Positions 15,812-25,009 of a stretch of 64,000 bases of DNA are shown here, one piece after another (position 1 is the stretch's first letter; every line of letters starts with the position of its first letter). Position numbers and translations under genes: made by a program. The notes under the pieces are model-generated. The model had not been told where the DNA came from, did not search any database, and saw only the letters and a program-made list of their open reading frames with translations. Source of the DNA: Terriglobus roseus (GTDB lineage Bacteria; Acidobacteriota; Terriglobia; Terriglobales; Acidobacteriaceae); assembly GCF_900105625.1 (NCBI RefSeq), contig NZ_FNSD01000001.1, positions 744,001 to 808,000 of the forward strand, written 5' to 3'.

Positions 15812-17683
15812 TTAGAGCATCGCCTGCAGCACTTCAGCCGCAGCGGCATAGCGTGCAAAGGGAGCGCTTACCTGCACGCCCTGCACCATGGACCGCGCCT
15901 CGCTCAGCATCTCCTGCGCGATGAGAATGCCCTCCGCGCGAGAGTGCTCCGGTGTCTCGGCGTGCGCCGCCATCCGCGACAGGATCTCGTCCGGCATGCG
16001 CACCTTCAGATCGTTCTTCATGAACTCCGCGTTCTTCACGCTCGTCAGCGGCCAGATGCCCGCAACGATGGGAATACGAAAGCTCTCGATGCGCTTCAGG
16101 AATGTCTCCAGCAGGCGCATGTCGAAGACCGGCTGCGTGATGCCGAACTCGGCACCCGCCTCCACCTTCGCGGCAAAGCGGCGCACCTCCGCATCCAGGT
16201 CCGGCACGCCGGGGTTAGCCGCAACCGCAATGACAAAGCCAGTGCTGGACCCAATGCTGTTGCCGCCGATGTCGAGACCGTGATTCATGTCGCGCACGAT
16301 GCGGGTCAAGCCAACTGCATCGACATCGAAGACTGCCGTAGCGTCGGGGTAGCTGCCCATCTTCGGCGGATCGCCGGTCAGGCAGAGGACATTGCGCAGC
16401 CCCAGGGATGACGCGCCGAGGAGTTCGCTTTGAATCCCGAGCAGGTTTCGGTCGCGGCACGTGTAGTGGATGACCGTCTCAATGCCGACCTTCTGTTCGA
16501 TCTGCAGGCACATGCTGCCGGCGCTCATACGAGTGCTGGCGCGAGGGCTGTCCGGGACATTGATGGCGTGGATGCCGAGTTCCTTCAGCATGCGCGCGCC
16601 CTCAAGTTCCCGCGTGGCGTCGATGCCCTTGGGCGGTACGATCTCGACCATGCTGACGAATTCGCCGCGCGCGATGCGGCCTCCCAGCGTGGATCGTTCG
16701 GCCAGCGGCACGGGTTCTATCGCGCTTGCAGCAGGCTTCGCACCGGCTGACAGAACACCTTCCGCCTGCGCCTGAATGGCCTTCACGCTCGAACGCATTG
16801 CTTTGATGTGTTTCGGCGTGGTGCCGCAGCAGCCGCCGATGATGGTCGCGCCAACGCGCATCGCCTTTCGCGCAAAACTGGCGAGGTATTCCGGCGACGA
16901 AAGATAGATGCTGCGGCCGTCAACGCAATTCGGCAGACCAGCGTTGGGCATGGCGGCGATGGGTAGTTTAGTTACCTTCCGCATGCGCTCGATGGTGTCC
17001 AGCACCTGCATTGGTCCATCGCTGCAGTTGCAGCCGACCGCGCGTGCGCCCCACTCCTCGAACAGACGAGCCGCGTCCTCTGGCGATGTCCCATCGGCCA
17101 CTATGCCGGCGTCCGTCACCGTGATCATTGCGATCACGGGCAGTTCCGGCGCGGCATCGCGTGCGGCCTGGATGGCAGCCTTTGCCTGTGCCAGAGACGT
17201 GATGGTTTCCACGACAAAAAGATCGACGCCCGCGGCGACCAGTGCATTCACCTGTTCGGTGTAGGCCGCCAGCATCATTGCGGGGTCAGCATCCTTCTTG
17301 TCGAAGCCCAGCGAACCCAGAGCGCCGGCCACGAAAGCCTGGTGCGCGTGCTTTTCGCGGACGCCATTCACGGCCGCGCGGGCGATGCGGACGGCAGCTG
17401 TATTAATCTCCGCCACCTTACCTTCGAGACCGAAGCGCTTCAAACGAGCGGCGTTTGCGCCGAAGGTATTGGTCTCAATCACCTCAGCCCCGGCCAGCAG
17501 ATATTCCTCGTGCAACTCGCGCACCATCTGCGGATCGGTCAGGTTTAACTCGTCAAAGCAGCGGTTAATAAAGACGCCGCGCGCATAGAACATCGTGCCC
17601 ATGGCACCGTCGCACAGGACTGGCGAGGGGCCGAAGAGCCGCTCAACATCGTGGGTTTTGCTTTGGGATATGGTCTCAGGCAT
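15812..17683 (-). CDS. Bifunctional homocysteine S-methyltransferase / methylenetetrahydrofolate reductase
   Basis: A 623-residue two-domain protein of the YitJ type. Residues ~1-305 are the homocysteine S-methyltransferase barrel, with DGAMGTMFYARG at the start and the zinc cysteines in GCNCSDGP (~217) and GGCCGTTP (~283). Residues ~335-620 are the FAD-dependent methylene-THF reductase barrel. It would make methyl-THF and may methylate homocysteine. There is no cobalamin-binding domain, so it is not complete MetH. MetH-type activity elsewhere in the genome is probable. The ATG at 17683 starts the conserved core. Confidence 0.9.
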   Translation of the reverse strand: MPETISQSKTHDVERLFGPSPVLCDGAMGTMFYARGVFINRCFDELNLTDPQMVRELHEEYLLAGAEVIETNTFGANAARLKRFGLEGKVAEINTAAVRIARAAVNGVREKHAHQAFVAGALGSLGFDKKDADPAMMLAAYTEQVNALVAAGVDLFVVETITSLAQAKAAIQAARDAAPELPVIAMITVTDAGIVADGTSPEDAARLFEEWGARAVGCNCSDGPMQVLDTIERMRKVTKLPIAAMPNAGLPNCVDGRSIYLSSPEYLASFARKAMRVGATIIGGCCGTTPKHIKAMRSSVKAIQAQAEGVLSAGAKPAASAIEPVPLAERSTLGGRIARGEFVSMVEIVPPKGIDATRELEGARMLKELGIHAINVPDSPRASTRMSAGSMCLQIEQKVGIETVIHYTCRDRNLLGIQSELLGASSLGLRNVLCLTGDPPKMGSYPDATAVFDVDAVGLTRIVRDMNHGLDIGGNSIGSSTGFVIAVAANPGVPDLDAEVRRFAAKVEAGAEFGITQPVFDMRLLETFLKRIESFRIPIVAGIWPLTSVKNAEFMKNDLKVRMPDEILSRMAAHAETPEHSRAEGILIAQEMLSEARSMVQGVQVSAPFARYAAAAEVLQAML

Positions 17684-17806
17684 GTCGTGTCGCTATCCTT
17701 CATCCTACTGCGTCACACACATGATCCCCATCCGCCCCCTCCCGCTTTGGTATACTTCGGCAGGGCGCGGCAAGGGAGATTTCCCGCAGCACCGTTGAGG
17801 TTTCCG

Positions 17807-19303
17807 TTGAAAAGTGTTTCCGTTGCGCGGTCTGCAACCGCCCTTCTGTTTGCAACCGTCGTCACTCTGCTGACGGGTTGTGGATACCGCCCTTACAAGA
17901 CCACTGAGAATCAGTTCGCCGGCCGGCCTGTTCCGCCCTCGAAGCTGACCCAGCGCGTGATGGTCGCCATCTCGCAGTCGAGTCTGCTCTCCGGCTCGCT
18001 GGAGGTCCTGGACGCGAAGCGTGATATCCGCTCGAACGTTTACGTGGCGAACAGCACCACGACGATCTCCGCGTATACCGGCCAGGCGCAGTCCATCATC
18101 AACTATCCTGAACAGACACGTGGCTTTGTCTACAGTAGCGATGGCAATATCAACACCATCAACTACTCGACGGAAGCGGGCCTGGGCCCTACGGCCACGT
18201 CGACCGGCGTGGTGTCGTCGTACTTCGTTCCGGAAGACACCCAGTCGGTATACACAGCAACGGAGCGCACGGGCACGGTAAACATCGCGCCTCCCGCGAC
18301 GGCCTCGGCGACGGCGAACTCGACTGCGACAGCCCTCGCGTTCGCGGTACCCAGCGTCTACAAGATCGTTGCGAATCCGTCGCACACCGTCATCCTGATG
18401 ATGCTGCGCAACTCCAACATGGTCTATCGCATGCTGCAATTGAACAGCAACCAGGTAGCACCGCCGAACGCGCTGACCTGCCAGCCGGTCAACAAGCCCA
18501 CCTTCTGCGTGATCCCTGTGGGTGCGACGCAAAGCGATGGCAGCGTCCGCGAGCCCTCGTTCCACCGGCCATCCAACGCATACTTTTCGCCTGACGGCAC
18601 GCAGGTTTACTTCCTGAGCTGCGGCCGCGAGTGTGGCGGTTCCGCTGCTACGGGCGACGATGTGCCAGCAGTGAACTTCGCGAATCTTGCCAACCTGCGC
18701 ATCGACTACTATCCGCCGAGCGCGACCTACGTTTCGCCCGTGGTCAGCTCGACCGCTGTTCCCGGCGGTGCAACAACGGCTCTTTCGGACGGTGCCACGC
18801 TCTACGTTGCGGGTCAGTCGCTGCAGGCCGACGGCTACTTCGGCGGCAACCTGTCGGTCATTCCTCTGTCGACCAAGACGGTCTCGCAGACGTTCTCGAT
18901 CTCTGACGGCGAGCACACGAAGATGCTCTTCGCCGACAACAACACGCTTTGGATCGGCGCGAACAACTGCGCCAGCGGCGAGCGTTACCAGCACGGCCAG
19001 AACTATAACTGCCTGACCCGCTACGACATCACGAACAAGGCAGCAGCGATCGTTCCGGCAGTCACGCCCGGTGGCGCAACCCATGTTCCCTATCCCAATG
19101 AAAACCTGGATCAGTATTACTACGGCAGTCTGACGGGTCTTTGCTGGGTTGAGAACCTGAACAAGGTCTACACGGCGTATGGCGGTCAGGTGCATGCCTT
19201 CAACACCGTGGATGGTTCGGAGATCGATAATACGAACATCACGGTCCAAGGCACGGCGAACGATGTGGCATACATGGACGCATCGACCAACGTCGCGAAC
19301 TAA
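17807..19303 (+). CDS. Lipoprotein of unknown function, propeller-like
   Basis: A 498-residue predicted lipoprotein. A TTG at 17807 is preceded by GAGG with a six-base spacer and gives a clean signal peptide ending in the lipobox LLTG-C25. The upstream frame to 17651 overlaps the divergent gene and is not used. The mature part has repeated short strands (VYVANSTTTISAY, RPSNAYFSPDGTQVYF, ATLYVAGQS, NTLWIGANN, NKVYTAYGGQVHAF) that suggest a YVTN/WD-like beta-propeller. There is a Thr/Ala-rich segment around residue 160. No catalytic motif is visible. Surface or periplasmic role; function unknown. Confidence 0.7.
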   Translation: MKSVSVARSATALLFATVVTLLTGCGYRPYKTTENQFAGRPVPPSKLTQRVMVAISQSSLLSGSLEVLDAKRDIRSNVYVANSTTTISAYTGQAQSIINYPEQTRGFVYSSDGNINTINYSTEAGLGPTATSTGVVSSYFVPEDTQSVYTATERTGTVNIAPPATASATANSTATALAFAVPSVYKIVANPSHTVILMMLRNSNMVYRMLQLNSNQVAPPNALTCQPVNKPTFCVIPVGATQSDGSVREPSFHRPSNAYFSPDGTQVYFLSCGRECGGSAATGDDVPAVNFANLANLRIDYYPPSATYVSPVVSSTAVPGGATTALSDGATLYVAGQSLQADGYFGGNLSVIPLSTKTVSQTFSISDGEHTKMLFADNNTLWIGANNCASGERYQHGQNYNCLTRYDITNKAAAIVPAVTPGGATHVPYPNENLDQYYYGSLTGLCWVENLNKVYTAYGGQVHAFNTVDGSEIDNTNITVQGTANDVAYMDASTNVAN

Positions 19304-19323
19304 GCACCACTTTGTTGCCTTAT

Positions 19324-19355
19324 CAGAAGAGCCGCCCATCTGGGCGGCTCTTCTG
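19324..19355. terminator. Bidirectional terminator
   Basis: CAGAAGAGCCGCCC (19324-19337) pairs perfectly with GGGCGGCTCTTCTG (19342-19355) around ATCT. It lies after the lipoprotein gene and before the convergent NTPase gene. Confidence 0.8.
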
Positions 19356-19414
19356 CTTTGTAGCGAAGGAATGGTGCCCGTGTCTCGCGCTTAAGACATG
19401 GGGCTGCGCGCAGT

Positions 19415-20050
19415 CTAGGCGACGCTTGGCATGCGCGGCATACAGCGTGACGTGAGCCAGGCGTCCGCATCGGGCGACAGCCCATCCTCGCGGAGTTCGA
19501 AGACCAGCTTGGCGCGATAAACCGACGGAGCGATGTCCTGCCACGCTGCCTCGCTCAGATCGATGCCGTTGGGAACAAAGAGAGCATCGGCACGGTCGAG
19601 ATAGCGCAGTGCCGATGGCTTGAAGTCAGCGACGGTTGGGTCAAGCACCGCGAGATAAAGGTCCGGACGAAGGAAGCGCAGAATGCTGTTGGACTCCACC
19701 AGCACATTCTCTGCAGCGGTGATCTCCTTTCGCAAACGCGGCATGGCTTCGCTCAACGAGCCCGCCGCAAGCTCGCCTTGCTGCGTTCGAACCCAAAGAA
19801 CCTTCGCAGCACCGGCGACGAGCATGCGAGAGGTGTCGGTGCCGCTGTCGCGCTTACGTTCTTCGCTGATGGCGACTGTGTGGTCAGCGGTCGCGCAGTC
19901 GCAGGCCTCGCCGTTCGCAGAACAGATGCCGTGGCCATACTGCGTGATCTTCATCGCAGTCCACTGCATCCCCGGGAAGGCGGAGATCACCTGCGTCGAC
20001 AGGGTGGTCTTGCCGATGTTGCGGGTGTGTCCACCAACGACGACAAGCAT
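19415..20050 (-). CDS. P-loop NTPase of unknown function, linked to lpxL-lpxD
   Basis: A 211-residue protein starting with the beta strand and loop LVVVGGHTRNIGKTTL, a P-loop slightly longer than the G-x4-GK-T consensus, as in MobB-like and other SIMIBI-type NTPases. A cysteine-containing region (HGICSANGEACDCA, residues ~40-53) could bind metal. VLVESNSIL near residue 120 may be the Walker B-like strand. The ATG is two bases from the lpxD stop, so it is probably the last gene of an lpxL-lpxD unit. Its role is unknown; a lipid A-related or regulatory ATPase/GTPase is only a guess from context. Confidence 0.7.
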   Translation of the reverse strand: MLVVVGGHTRNIGKTTLSTQVISAFPGMQWTAMKITQYGHGICSANGEACDCATADHTVAISEERKRDSGTDTSRMLVAGAAKVLWVRTQQGELAAGSLSEAMPRLRKEITAAENVLVESNSILRFLRPDLYLAVLDPTVADFKPSALRYLDRADALFVPNGIDLSEAAWQDIAPSVYRAKLVFELREDGLSPDADAWLTSRCMPRMPSVA

Positions 20051-20052
20051 GG

Positions 20053-20967
20053 CTACTTCCCCCGGCTTAGCCGCGCCAGGTCACGCAGATACTGCTTGAG
20101 TGGACGCGCGGGACGACCCCAGAAGACTTGTCCTGCTCCATAAAGCTTCTTGTTGCTAAGCACACCTGCGCCACCGCCGAGGATGACGCCAGGACCGACG
20201 ATCGCGTGCTCGCCCATGCCGACCTGTCCGCCCAGGATTGCACCGTCCTCGACGACGCTGGAGCCGCTGATGCCGGTCTGCGCAGCAATGATCACATTGC
20301 GGCCGATGCGTACGTTATGGCCGATGTGAACCAGGTTGTCGATCTTCGTTCCGGCACCGATGCGTGTCTCACCCAGGGCACCACGGTCGATGGTGGTGTT
20401 CGCGCCGATCTCGACATCGTCTTCAATGACGAGCGCGCCCTGTTGCGGAAACAGCAGGTAACTACCGTCCGGCCGCCGAGCGTAGCCGAAGCCGCGTGAA
20501 CCAAGCACGGCGCCTGCCTGCACCTGAACGCGATCTCCCAGCACTACCCCTGCCTCGATGACGACTCGCGCGCCAATGGTGCATCCGGTGCCGATCGTGA
20601 CGGCCTCGCCAACGACCGTTCCGGGGCCGACGCTTACACCGTCGCTCAACTTCGTTGAGGGAGCGATCTGCGCCGTTGGATCGATCTGTGCGGACACACG
20701 CGGACGCAGACGGTCGGCCACGACAGAGAATGCCAGCCGGGCATCGGCCACATGCATCACCCTCGGATCGTCACTGGCAAGCTTTGCGCTCGCCAGCACC
20801 AGCCCGGCCGCAGACGCCAACGCAGATGCGAGGGCCTCTGCTGATGTTGCGAAGACCACTGCGTCCGCCGAGGCGGACTCCGGCGCGGCAACACGCAGGA
20901 TCTCGGCGGAAGTCGCTCTGCCGATCTCGGCCCCAAGCCACGCTGCAATCTCGGGTCTGGTTGCCAT
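20053..20967 (-). CDS. lpxD: UDP-3-O-acylglucosamine N-acyltransferase
   Basis: Third enzyme of lipid A synthesis: adds the N-linked hydroxyacyl chain to UDP-3-O-acylglucosamine. The 304-residue protein has an N-terminal uridine-binding part (~1-95), a left-handed beta-helix of hexapeptide repeats from about residue 95, and the catalytic-histidine segment [12 protein letters not shown] near residue 220. It is somewhat shorter than E. coli LpxD (341) because the C-terminal helix is reduced. It starts two bases after the lpxL stop, indicating translational coupling. Confidence 0.93.
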
Positions 20968-20969
20968 CG

Positions 20970-22019
20970 TTAACGCGTCTCCGCCGATAGGATCGAACTG
21001 TTCTTTGCATCCACACCGCTCCGCGCGCCCGATGCCGTGCTCGCCGAGCGCCGCGTGTAAATCGGTGGCTCACCGGGAGGACGTGTCTTCCAGCGGCGAT
21101 GCAGCCACAACCACTGCTCCGGATAACGGCGGACGTATGCCTCCGTGGTGGCCGCGAAGAGCGCGGTGTTTGCGAGTGCATCTGCCTCGGCATCGGAGGT
21201 GTGCTGAATCTTAAGCTCCTCGCCGAAGTGGAGCACGTAGCGCTGCTCTTCCTGCGACCAGAGCAGGAAGCCCGGAACCACTGCCGCACCCGTCTTCCGC
21301 GCAACGCGGGCCAGACCGCTGGCCGTGCATGCAGGAACACCGAAGAATGGCACGAAGACTCCCTGGGGTGGCGTCATGTTGGTATCCATCAGGATGCCAA
21401 CGGTTTCGCCCTTGTGCATCGCGCTGATCAACCCGCGAGCGAAGTCATCCTTGTGCAGGACACGATTGCCGTGCAGACACCGGATCGCGTTCACCATGTC
21501 ATCGACCAGTGGATTGTCCAGGCGCCGGATGACCATCCCCATGGGGTGTCCCAGCAGAGAGTGTACGAAGCTGGATAGCTCCCAGGCTCCCAGATGGCCC
21601 GTAAGCACCAGCACGCCCTTACCGCGCGCTTCGGCCGTCAGGAAGTTCTCCAGCCCGTCATATCGCATGACTTTTTCGCGAACGAACTCCGCCGAATAGT
21701 TGGACATCTGACAGAACTCAGCGAGCTGCCACCCCAACGAGCGGAAAGTACCGCGAAGAACAGCTTGCCTTTCCGACGTTGAGAGATGCGGGAAGGCCAG
21801 CTGCAGGTTGCGGTCGCCCGTGCCGGAGAGACGTCCTGCAAGGGCGCCTGCGGCTGCTCCGATGGCAGCGCCCGCAGACCGCGCCACAGACCTCGGGAGC
21901 ACACGCAGTGCAGACACAGCCGCGACGACCGCTGCATATTCCAACCGCTGACGGAAGGTGACCGTCCGCTCCTGACGTGATGCCGGAAGACTCAAGGCTT
22001 CAGTGTAATCCCGCGCCAA
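20970..22019 (-). CDS. lpxL: Lipid A secondary acyltransferase, LpxL/HtrB family
   Basis: A roughly 349-residue membrane-associated acyltransferase of the LpxL/LpxM family. The H-x4-[DE] motif is in [10 protein letters not shown] (~residue 145), and the [23 protein letters not shown] and [12 protein letters not shown] blocks are in order. The first plausible start is a TTG at 22019 with no good ribosome binding site, so the true start may be further in (another TTG lies near codon 26). It heads a tight lpxL-lpxD-NTPase unit. Which hydroxyl of lipid A it acylates cannot be told. Confidence 0.88.
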
Positions 22020-22020
22020 T

Positions 22021-22050
22021 ACGAAAGGGCCCCCTACGGAGGCCCCTCGT
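22021..22050. terminator. Imperfect hairpin between SYLF gene and lpxL
   Basis: ACGA...GGGCC pairs with GGCCC...TCGT with a small bulge, just beyond the 3' end of the SYLF gene and right at the lpxL start. It could terminate the SYLF transcript on the minus strand. It lacks a U-tract. Confidence 0.4.
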
Positions 22051-22066
22051 GTGATTCGTTCGAATG

Positions 22067-22756
22067 CTACTGACGGCTGGAGACGAAGTACTTCGCAACC
22101 GTGCCGACAAAGGGCTTTGCGTCATCCGGTGTGCGCTGTCCGCCACCCAGTACCGTCTTGAAGGGGATGTTTGCACCGTAGAACGTGCGCGTATCATCCT
22201 CGTTCTGCGAGAGCACCGTTCCGTCGAGATCGATACCTGCGAACAGGCCCTTCGAACGCGAGTAGGTCAGGAACTCCGCATTGAGCTTCCAGTCGGTGCC
22301 GGCCTGGGCGTTACGGCCAACCGGGCCTGCCGAAGCAGCAGCATCGCCACCGATCTTGAACTTGTTGGTCAGCATGTGCTGCAGACCGTTCTGGTTCATT
22401 GCAACCAGAACGAGGTCAGTCGACTGTCCGCCGATCTGGAAACCGAAGCTGCCACCGGCGAGCTGCACGAACACAGGTGCGCTCCAACCGTGGCCGGTGC
22501 GGCATGTCGCGACACCCTGACCGTACTGTGCACCAACAACGAAGGCGCCCTTCTTGAAGGCCGGGATCACGACGACGCAGTTTGCGCCGCTCAGAATCTG
22601 GCTGGGGATCGACTTGTCGGGAGTCGCCATGATCTCGTGCAGAATGTTCTGCGAATCGGTAAGGCGCTCATCAAGCTTCGCCTTGTCGGCGGCCATGGCG
22701 GGCAGTGCGGTCGCTACAAGCGTCAACGCACACAGTGCAGCTTTGATACGGTTCAT
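22067..22756 (-). CDS. Exported SYLF-domain lipid-binding-type protein
   Basis: A 229-residue protein with a signal peptide (MNRIKAALCALTLVATALPAMA). A SYLF (Ysc84-like) domain follows, covering nearly all the rest: IPSQILSGANCVVVIPAFKKGAF, GQGVATCR, GGSFGFQIGGQSTDLVLVAMN and KGLFAGIDLDGTVL. SYLF domains bind phosphoinositides in eukaryotes; the bacterial ligand is unknown. The ATG at 22756 has AAAGGTGAT just upstream. It lies between two hairpins, so it is probably monocistronic. Confidence 0.88.
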   Translation of the reverse strand: MNRIKAALCALTLVATALPAMAADKAKLDERLTDSQNILHEIMATPDKSIPSQILSGANCVVVIPAFKKGAFVVGAQYGQGVATCRTGHGWSAPVFVQLAGGSFGFQIGGQSTDLVLVAMNQNGLQHMLTNKFKIGGDAAASAGPVGRNAQAGTDWKLNAEFLTYSRSKGLFAGIDLDGTVLSQNEDDTRTFYGANIPFKTVLGGGQRTPDDAKPFVGTVAKYFVSSRQ

Positions 22757-23067
22757 CTTTATCACCTTTTCTGCGGCACCCCATGGGCGCACGCTCACAT
22801 CGCTACTTGTGATGGATGAGACGCGAGTCAAGTTGTACGGGATCGAAAGGGACGGCTGCTGAAGCGTCGTCAAAGGTCTACATTGGGGGCGACCATAGGC
22901 AAAAAAATGGGGCTGCAGTCTGGGCTCTCACCCCGGCCGACAGCCCCTCTTCTCCCAGGTCTGTGTTACGTAGATCTAAGATGCGGCCTATAGAAGTAAC
23001 CTGCAAGTTACGTAGGTCCCAAGACTATTGAATACTGCTTCCTCCCTTTTTGGCACGCACTTTCTGG
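22757..23067. other. Gene-free stretch between TonB-like and SYLF genes
   Basis: About 310 bases without a supported gene. It holds the minus-strand terminator at 22901-22947 and, beyond that, the leader of the SYLF gene. GTTACGTAG occurs twice (about 22964 and 23012). I see no known riboswitch pattern. Confidence 0.5.
22901..22947 (-). terminator. Intrinsic terminator after the TonB-like gene
   Basis: On the minus strand GGGGCTG (from 22947) pairs with CAGCCCC (to 22909) across about 25 bases that include a GGGG/CCC inner pairing. An A and seven T residues follow, which is the U-tract of a rho-independent terminator. It is about 120 bases after the upstream gene. Confidence 0.6.
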
Positions 23068-23751
23068 TCACTCCTCTAAGGCGAAGCACTCCCAGCCGCA
23101 ATTCTCATTACGACGACGGTCAAAGTGGAAGCGCAGTTCACGCTCGCTCGCAACGGCATGGCCGTTTCGCATTGCGGGGTGGAAGAGCCAACGCTCGACC
23201 GTCGCGACGACCAGGTCGTCGATCTGCGCACCCATACCGCGACGGGCATGTACCTGCGCAACGTGGCCTGTGTCATCGATCTCAACCTCCACGATGACAT
23301 CGCCGGTCGTTCCGGCGCCGGACAGATCCGGTTTCTGCCCTGGAAACGCCTGCACATACAGCAAGCTGACAGTGCCGGTGCCGAGAGCATCGTTGCCCTG
23401 CACCGGAGGGGCCGCGCTGGCATCGTCCGCCACCACCGGAAGTACGTTTGCTCTTGGGTAACGCCGCGCCATTGCACGGCGAGGCGGTGTCGGCGGCAAG
23501 GGCGCGGGCTTGCCCGGGTTGTAGGTCACCAGAACGTGCCGCCCCGTGGCCGTGCCGGCCGGCTTGAGTCGCGGCGCCCCCATCCACCAGGCATTCACGA
23601 GAACGAGCAACGCCAGCAGGTGCAGACAAGCCGAGAACATTGCGCGGCCAGGCAGCGTCTCAAGCCACCGAACGCCGCGGGCTCGCGGCGCTGCGGCGGG
23701 GATCAGGGCCAAACGGCGGCGAAGATCGCTGAGGCGAAGCATGCGGCTCAT
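23068..23751 (-). CDS. TonB-like energy transducer
   Basis: A 227-residue protein with a cytoplasmic N-terminus, one membrane segment (FSACLHLLALLVLVNAWW, residues ~43-60), a Pro-rich spacer (KPAPLPPTPPRR) and a C-terminal TonB-type domain (GDVIVEVEIDDTGHV ... VATVERWLFHPA). The order matches TonB proteins that couple the proton-motive force to outer-membrane receptors. ExbB/ExbD genes are not nearby. ATGs at 23751 and 23742 are both possible starts. It could also be a TonB-like paralogue with another role. Confidence 0.7.
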   Translation of the reverse strand: MSRMLRLSDLRRRLALIPAAAPRARGVRWLETLPGRAMFSACLHLLALLVLVNAWWMGAPRLKPAGTATGRHVLVTYNPGKPAPLPPTPPRRAMARRYPRANVLPVVADDASAAPPVQGNDALGTGTVSLLYVQAFPGQKPDLSGAGTTGDVIVEVEIDDTGHVAQVHARRGMGAQIDDLVVATVERWLFHPAMRNGHAVASERELRFHFDRRRNENCGWECFALEE

Positions 23752-23817
23752 CGTATCGCAAGGGCACAACGCCGCGATGCTGGTCTGCAGTCGCAGCCGT
23801 TGAGTAGACTGCTCCGC

Positions 23818-24369
23818 ATGAGATCGTCCCTGCTCCTTGTCGTCCTGTCTTTGCCGCTGGCAAGTCTCTCCGCACAGCCGCCCCGCACCGCGCGCGGAGC
23901 AACGACGGCCACGCTGCCTGCGTTCTCCGGCACGTGGGTTTTGGACCCAGCTCGCAGCAAAGTCGTGCAGCACACCAATGGAGAGAGCCGAGCCATCATC
24001 CAGTACGACGGCAAGACGTGGCACTACATCCACACGCACCAGGCCGAAGAAGAGGAAAAGCCGGACGCGTGGCAGACCACGCTGGTCGTCGACTCCCCGA
24101 CGCCACACGTTGTTCACGGCGAGGACATTACGTTTCGGTCGCGCATCCAGCGTGTTGGGCAAGCCATGCTTCTGACGGAGACCGGTGTCACGCTCAACGG
24201 CCAGAAGACCTCCAACACCGTGCGATACACGCTCGAAGACGGCGGCAACACGTTGGTGGAGACGGAGACGGCCGTGGGCCCACTCGGCAAACAGGTGAAC
24301 GTCTATGTTCTGAAGCGCGAAGGGCCCCTGCCGGAAATCGGGACGAAGACAGACAAGAAAGACGACTAA
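23818..24369 (+). CDS. Small exported protein, unknown function
   Basis: A 183-residue protein with a signal peptide (LLLVVLSLPLASLSA). A compact beta-rich domain beginning FSGTWVLDPARSKV follows, resembling lipocalin-like or avidin-like folds that start with a 'GTW' strand. It ends in a charged, Lys/Asp-rich tail. No catalytic residues are evident. It is divergent from the TonB-like gene and abuts the convergent regulator gene. Confidence 0.65.
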   Translation: MRSSLLLVVLSLPLASLSAQPPRTARGATTATLPAFSGTWVLDPARSKVVQHTNGESRAIIQYDGKTWHYIHTHQAEEEEKPDAWQTTLVVDSPTPHVVHGEDITFRSRIQRVGQAMLLTETGVTLNGQKTSNTVRYTLEDGGNTLVETETAVGPLGKQVNVYVLKREGPLPEIGTKTDKKDD

Positions 24370-24370
24370 C

Positions 24371-25009
24371 TCAATTACGACCGTCGATCTGCATCTCAAT
24401 GGCGCGAACAGTGAGCGCCACACGATTGGCGACGCCAAACTTCTGCAGCAGCCTGCCGACGTGCGACTTAACGGTCTTCGTCTCAACGCCAAGTGTTGCG
24501 GCGATCTCACGATTGGCGCGACCGTCAATCAGCAGGTCGATCACTTCACGCTCCCGCGGCGTCAGCTTGATCTCAGGCGGCCTGGGATCGTCGGGCGCGA
24601 TCGTGTCAATCAGGCTCGCCAGCACCTTGCGCGGGGCCCAGATGGAACCGTCCGCGACCACGTCGACCGCCATCACAATCTCACGCGGACTGGCCGTGTA
24701 CTGCAGGTAGCCCTTGGCCCCGCTGGCCACGACGCGCTGAATGAATGACGGATCCGTGCGGCTGCCCAGCACGATCAGCCGAAGGCCGGGGCGAGCGCGA
24801 CGGAAAGCCGCCATCATGGGGAAGAGATCTTCTTCACGCGTGTCGATCAGGACCATGGACAGGTCACCTTCGCGCAGGGTGTCCGGTGCGGTCAGCGGCA
24901 ACAGGTCGCAATCGGACAGCACCGCGCACAGGCCCTCCACGCGCAGGGGGTCGCTCGACAGCACCCCCACCCGCAGCCGTGGCCTCGTGTTGTCCAGTTC
25001 TGTCCCCAT
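24371..25009 (-). CDS. LuxR/NarL-type regulator with degenerate receiver
   Basis: A 212-residue protein with a receiver-like domain (~12-130) and a C-terminal LuxR-type helix-turn-helix (LTPREREVIDLLIDGRANREIAATLGVETKTVKSH is the span, residues ~148-185). The receiver keeps the phospho-acceptor position (D56 in VLIDTRE). The acidic pair that binds Mg2+ is replaced by serines (LSSDPLRVEG) and the conserved lysine by tyrosine (GYLQYTASPRE). Phosphorylation-independent control is therefore likely. No kinase is adjacent. The start at 25009 is four bases after the dcd stop, so it is probably expressed with dcd. Confidence 0.85.
   Translation of the reverse strand: MGTELDNTRPRLRVGVLSSDPLRVEGLCAVLSDCDLLPLTAPDTLREGDLSMVLIDTREEDLFPMMAAFRRARPGLRLIVLGSRTDPSFIQRVVASGAKGYLQYTASPREIVMAVDVVADGSIWAPRKVLASLIDTIAPDDPRPPEIKLTPREREVIDLLIDGRANREIAATLGVETKTVKSHVGRLLQKFGVANRVALTVRAIEMQIDGRN

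Follow-up and report, generated by a model that had tools for sequence, protein, structure and literature searches.

Introduction

Three groups of P-loop proteins bear comparison with the product of the gene analysed here. In PMC13197769, E. coli MobB, the adaptor of molybdopterin-guanine dinucleotide biosynthesis (PF03205/TIGR00176), is presented as a protein that binds GTP and assists the MobA step without being essential, and MobB of Methylorubrum extorquens is said to be needed, together with MoeA1, for the tungsten-dependent formate dehydrogenase and not for the molybdenum route. The other two groups are LpxK, the tetraacyldisaccharide 4'-kinase, and the nickel-handling GTPases HypB and UreG. 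PMC3087551, which surveys the Kdo2-lipid A pathway, covers typical lpx clusters along with duplications of lpxD, and the part of its text available mentions no P-loop partner. Our literature search found no paper joining MobB and lpxD, and the matches listed for MobB with Acidobacteri-, and for SIMIBI, MobB, LpxK and dethiobiotin synthetase, contained no title that looked relevant.

A P-loop gene of Terriglobus roseus directly follows lpxL and lpxD. We argue that it probably, if by no means certainly, represents an unannotated MobB-related family, likely a molybdenum-cofactor accessory, which rides behind lpxL–lpxD in the taxonomic family of its host.

Organization of the locus

The window (the whole stretch of 64,000 nucleotides that was analysed, positions 744,001 to 808,000 of contig NZ_FNSD01000001.1) belongs to a genome of 4.81 Mb in two contigs. 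On its minus strand an lpxL/HtrB-type gene, lpxD and the P-loop gene follow one another in this order, with the features listed below.

20970..22019, minus strand: lpxL/HtrB-type late acyltransferase gene (349 aa; PF03279, E 7.8e-59)
20053..20967, minus strand: lpxD, UDP-3-O-acylglucosamine N-acyltransferase (304 aa; TIGR01853, 247.8 bits against a cut-off of 242.5)
19415..20050, minus strand: P-loop NTPase gene, divergent MobB-like (211 aa; PF03205, 16.6 bits, sub-threshold; hhalign to the MobB alignment, 94–99%)
20006..20032, minus strand: Walker A motif (P-loop) GHTRNIGKT, residues 7–15 of the P-loop protein (from the sequence)
19880..19924, minus strand: Cys cluster and His, C43-x(6)-C50-x-C52 ... 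H57 (from the sequence)
19808..19846, minus strand: SGTDTSRMLVAGA motif, residues 69–81 of the P-loop protein, counterpart of PGKDS...AGA in MobB (alignment to E. coli MobB)

The initial annotation had described three genes two bases apart, the third encoding a P-loop protein with a Cys cluster; both gaps are indeed of two bases (20968–20969 between lpxL and lpxD, 20051–20052 between lpxD and the P-loop gene), and the third gene does encode a Walker A motif and a Cys cluster (C43, C50 and C52). The order of the three genes is not due to chance, since it recurs across genera, and we infer that they form one transcript. The first gene scores 164.3 bits with TIGR02207, under the model cut-off of 297.8. 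Its start is uncertain, at TTG 22019 or at the in-frame TTG 21995; a GC-rich hairpin, spotted by eye, immediately precedes TTG 22019 and is absent from the output of the promoter/terminator scan of the locus, in which no signal exceeded chance. An Rfam search of 18500–24500 returned no family, the Moco riboswitch included, at E values up to 1. The MobA-like gene of this genome lies about 0.24 Mb, and moaA about 3 Mb, from the P-loop gene. On the plus strand, 17651–19303 holds an ORF of 550 residues that looks propeller-like by eye and has no Pfam match at E 0.001.

The P-loop protein and its relation to MobB

Of the 249 genomes of the order Terriglobales, 196 encode a relative of the P-loop protein, yet neither the window's protein nor the 15 relatives scanned pass any Pfam or NCBIfam cut-off. 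MobB is the sole family that the window's protein matches in these collections, below both curated cut-offs (PF03205, 16.6 versus 26.6 bits; TIGR00176, 12.5 versus 76.2 bits), and is also the family matched by most of the close relatives (nine of 16 in Pfam and ten of 16 in NCBIfam), all weakly (best E values of 0.0023 and 0.0021). Neither the protein nor the 16 relatives match LpxK (PF02606) in Pfam. A divergent member, L173, forms a bridge: it passes the PF03205 cut-off (27.3 versus 26.6 bits) and matches alignment A1, which comprises 16 close relatives.

Profile–profile comparison with hhalign used an alignment of E. coli MobB and 32 other sequences. Against it, a 42-sequence set of the P-loop family, which contains the bridge L173 and may be pulled towards MobB by it, scores 98.0–98.8% (E 1.7e-13 to 6e-16), and the 16 close relatives alone score 94.4%; the alignment spans the whole length (153–164 columns). 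The corresponding values are 72 and 0% against LpxK, and 0.0 and 0.1% against a small HypB alignment. As the MobB alignment itself reaches 82% with HypB and 52% with LpxK, the MobB score of the P-loop family exceeds the cross-family level. A comparison of A1 with E. coli MobB alone is uninformative (5%, E 0.0075). As the protein fails the curated MobB cut-offs, we call it a relative of MobB and not MobB itself.

The hallmarks of MobB are all present in a 28-row diverse alignment (A2): the Walker A motif, the Glu that ends the Walker B strand and the G-x-D-(S/T)...AGA motif, which in MobB and in this family takes the form (S/P)G-x-D-(S/T)...AGA. K14, T15, G80 and E119 are invariant in A2, and G7, G13, R75, A79 and A81 are conserved in at least 90% of its rows; G7, H8, R10, G13, K14 and T15 are invariant in A1. 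The family differs from MobB in having VESNS where MobB has VEGFK and, in many members, about 24 extra residues with the Cys cluster. According to the profile–profile alignment, this insertion follows the second strand and precedes the G-x-D-(S/T)...AGA motif; it reads C43-S-A-N-G-E-A-C50-D-C52 in the window's protein, with H57 further on. C43, C50, C52 and H57 are invariant in the 16 sequences of A1, and a Cys motif of the same kind is present in all 80 close loci (the best 80 of 354). In our own reading of A2, however, paired Cys residues are missing from 12 of the 28 diverse members, and a copy from the genus of the window (L187) is kept behind lpxD with its Cys cluster lost.

The AF2 model of the protein is confident (mean pLDDT 87.9) except in the Cys loop, where residues 47–49 fall below 50. 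In the fold comparison (VIA) the top rows are tied (LpxK 4ehy, Z 13.3 over 164 residues with an rmsd of 3.1; cDPGS, 13.0; IcmF, 12.8), with HypB (11.8) and UreG (11.5) in lower rows. Foldseek places HypB (4lps) first and LpxK second, at 7.2e-5 each; the MobB homologue 1xjc comes 43rd (E 2.1e-3) but has the top target-normalised TM-score (0.59) of the 50 best rows. As far as a predicted model can tell, the fold is shared, and the comparison does not choose a family member. We take the class of this P-loop NTPase to be SIMIBI. A search of solved structures by sequence gave no match at E below 0.1.

Linkage to lpxD within the order

Among the 30 best-scoring loci, lpxD lies immediately upstream on the same strand in all 30 (in L028 it is truncated by the contig end) and LpxL falls inside the 1.5-kb flank in 26. 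The pattern holds in a larger sample of 80 named loci (L040–L119), which as the best 80 of 354 are biased to close relatives: the P-loop gene is downstream of a same-strand lpxD in 78, the exceptions being L066, where the contig starts, and L092. The gap between the two genes is at most 50 bp in 46 of these loci (overlaps included), at most 300 bp in 74 (these 46 included) and above 300 bp in four; 2 bp is the commonest value, found seven times, and a lone –320 stems from an artefact of the alignment. The coupling to lpxL–lpxD noted in the initial annotation is thus recurrent.

The conserved block extends beyond the three genes. Where the flanks are complete (48 loci), no neighbour is kept more often than lpxD (47), followed by lpxL (41, of which 38 on the same strand), ysc84 (40, of which 37 on the same strand) and, in 30 loci each, a homocysteine methyltransferase/MTHFR gene, the propeller-like gene and dcd; the 6-kb flanks restrict the counts for distant neighbours. 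The linkage to lpx genes is therefore real but partly a matter of general synteny. No plasmid-borne copy of the P-loop gene was found. All 27 other genomes of the same family that were searched contain, besides the lpxD of the operon, a further LpxD-like match (E < 1e-20, mostly of about 35–44% identity); by analogy with them, the window's genome probably has two lpxD-like genes, that of the operon being one.

The lpx genes persist where the P-loop gene is lost. A search for LpxD covered 30 genomes, 29 of them without the P-loop gene. In the 29 lpxD loci of the latter, an lpxL homologue is present inside the 1.5-kb flank in 23, and the broad family HMM detected no P-loop gene in these flanks. 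In three loci of the window's genus (L180–L182), lpxD is followed by what, judged by eye, is the propeller-like gene that in the window lies beyond the P-loop gene. The order contains 53 gene-less genomes, of which 43 were tested for MoaA, MobA, PF00384, MobB and A2, the ten omitted being mostly of low completeness. A whole-genome search of the 43 with A2 gave two partial matches only (44 and 36 positions), and all five gene-bearing control genomes were detected. The P-loop gene is accordingly not retained whenever lpxL–lpxD stay: lpxD, mostly with lpxL, remains without it, which argues against the proposal of the initial annotation that its product regulates or chaperones lipid A synthesis.

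Members outside the order

A phylum-wide search of 297 genomes with the A1 profile yields members in 53, of which 24 belong to the window's taxonomic family and 29 lie outside its order. We examined 27 of these loci, 26 of them outside the order, with flanks of up to about 5 kb or to the contig end. In the flanks of the 26, the search detected neither LpxD nor LpxL; L168 has a weak MsbA-type ABC match. Four of them show a fusion or adjacency to MobA, or adjacency to moaA or a molybdoenzyme operon. In L161 the P-loop member is fused to a MobA domain (PF12804, 1.8e-35), in L174 it starts within about 15 bp after a MobA gene and in L152 it is directly upstream of moaA. In L158 it stands directly behind a molybdoenzyme operon that encodes a molybdopterin oxidoreductase (PF00384), a 4Fe–4S subunit (Fer4_11), an ethylbenzene-dehydrogenase-type subunit (EB_dh) and a nitrate-reductase-delta-type chaperone (Nitrate_red_del). 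A MobA-like gene is also present within about 3 kb in L173 and L176; in the remaining 20 loci no Moco gene was recognised, MobA alone having been searched for in all.

In another clade, a Lon protease gene directly precedes the P-loop member in all four loci tested (L153–L155 and L157), and the members of L153–L155 are without the Cys cluster. The housekeeping genes beside which the P-loop gene has settled therefore vary from clade to clade, and its lpx neighbours by themselves say little about its function. Tight lpx linkage has so far been seen only in the window's taxonomic family, in a survey of this family and of the 26 loci outside the order.

Distribution of MobA and MobB

A MobA-like gene (E < 1e-12, a threshold chosen after the values were seen) is present in all 117 gene-bearing genomes tested within the order, out of 196 and in batches of 37 and 80, compared with 32 of the 43 gene-less genomes (Fisher test, 1.9e-7; genus-stratified, 2e-4). 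The stratified figure comes from shuffles within genera and rests on three genera with both MobA-less and gene-bearing genomes; more generally, close genomes are not independent samples, and relatedness inflates the association figures for both MobA and MobB. The MobA match reached the TIGR02665 cut-off in none of the 160 genomes. As 32 gene-less genomes retain a MobA-like gene, the P-loop gene is not needed for MobA. Eight of the 11 MobA-less genomes have at most one PF00384 match, and a single match there may, we presume, be a NuoG homologue; the other three have two (G239), five (G009) and three (G013) matches, all weak in the last two. MoaA is found in 76 of 80 genomes and PF00384 in 79 of 80, and such nearly universal genes make co-occurrence uninformative, except that the four genomes without MoaA are also without the P-loop gene.

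Canonical MobB exceeds the PF03205 cut-off in 74 of the 297 genomes of the phylum, in some barely. It is found in one of the 53 family-positive genomes (G314) versus 73 of the 244 family-negative ones (Fisher test, 2e-6; 8e-4 outside the window's taxonomic family), a near-exclusion that fits replacement of MobB by the P-loop family. Displacement in the opposite direction, by canonical MobB within the order, was rejected as the cause of most losses: three of 80 genomes pass the cut-off, two with fusions to MobA (G094 and G224) and one with a protein that resembles HypB by eye (G093).

Possible function and alternative explanations

The profiles and the genome distribution both point to MobB and molybdenum-cofactor maturation, and the third gene more likely has its role with molybdenum enzymes than in the outer membrane. 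Like MobB, its product would be an accessory in late cofactor maturation, would most likely bind GTP or ATP, and could have as partners MobA, which attaches GMP to form bis-MGD, and perhaps MoeA. By analogy with MobB, it might handle Mo/W-MPT between MoeA and MobA in a nucleotide-dependent manner. The inserted Cys/His loop may bind a metal or hold a thiol-bound intermediate; with 12 of the 28 diverse members devoid of paired Cys, it would tune the function and not define it. The position behind lpxL–lpxD, a further difference from MobB, is probably historical or related to expression. The initial annotation would have given up its proposal on a clear assignment to MobB or another pathway together with an absence of recurrent linkage to lpx genes: the assignment to the MobB group largely holds, below the curated cut-offs, whereas the lpx linkage does recur.

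A role in lipid A is unlikely, despite this linkage and its commonest spacing of two bases. As a lipid A enzyme or regulator, the protein would be either a soluble kinase resembling LpxK or an NTPase chaperoning LpxD or LpxL, an explanation that we consider quite improbable even with LpxK at the head of the fold comparison and second in Foldseek. The leading Z scores are tied, the close relatives have no profile similarity to LpxK and the broad set has less than it has to MobB. Replacement of a missing LpxK was rejected: a genuine LpxK (PF02606) is encoded elsewhere in 237 of the 249 genomes of the order, that of the window included. The persistence of lpxL and lpxD in gene-less genomes, the absence of LpxD and LpxL near the 26 members outside the order, and the loss of the Cys loop from L187 in an unchanged place also speak against it. 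The Cys/His loop, in a P-loop NTPase with a fold of the HypB/UreG type, could instead suggest a metallochaperone or metal-sensing GTPase of this kind, the loop delivering a metal to some enzyme that is not a molybdoenzyme. The first rank of HypB in Foldseek and the metal-handling role of the listed structures are in line with this, which we nevertheless judge unlikely: the family shows no profile similarity to HypB, the one of the two covered by the profile comparison, while MobB itself reaches the same HypB alignment. A metal site formed by Cys residues cannot be the core function when so many diverse members have no paired Cys, and the distribution of MobA and MobB is a further argument against it.

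It could also be that this MobB-like NTPase serves the Moco pathway in other clades and, in the window's taxonomic family, was recruited to a different task within the lpx operon. The restriction of tight lpx linkage to this family, and the gene-less genomes that manage MobA without the P-loop gene, would agree with such a recruitment; it has little chance of being right given that every gene-bearing genome tested in the window's own order has a MobA-like gene. That the Cys-loop, MobB-like NTPase of the lpxL–lpxD operon couples lipid A acylation in Acidobacteriota, physically or by regulation, to the status of the molybdenum cofactor (or of metal) is highly improbable; if true, outer-membrane remodelling and molybdoenzyme maturation would be co-controlled. 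Returning to the MobB-related accessory, a replacement of MobB would help to explain the bis-MGD enzymes of Acidobacteriota, where canonical MobB is patchy, and would offer a Cys-bearing variant with which to probe the uncertain step served by MobB. The very strong operon linkage seen here probably points to the wrong pathway.

Other observations on members of the family

In seven genomes (G065, G149, G034, G069, G008, G061 and G101), the P-loop gene and the MobA-like gene share a contig and are only about 14–90 kb apart, which may reflect an old neighbourhood. In a sister subfamily (L162, L164, L166, L175 and similar loci), RGHYRSCGKDPxxCCVS replaces the CSANGEACDC loop, and an unsystematic look at the neighbours brought no common pathway to notice. 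Homologues with in-frame stops in G043, G272, G472 and G479 reflect either decay of the copies or errors of assembly. Among the matches listed (named records), the window's protein has its closest relative in Terriglobus roseus DSM 18391, with 82% identity.
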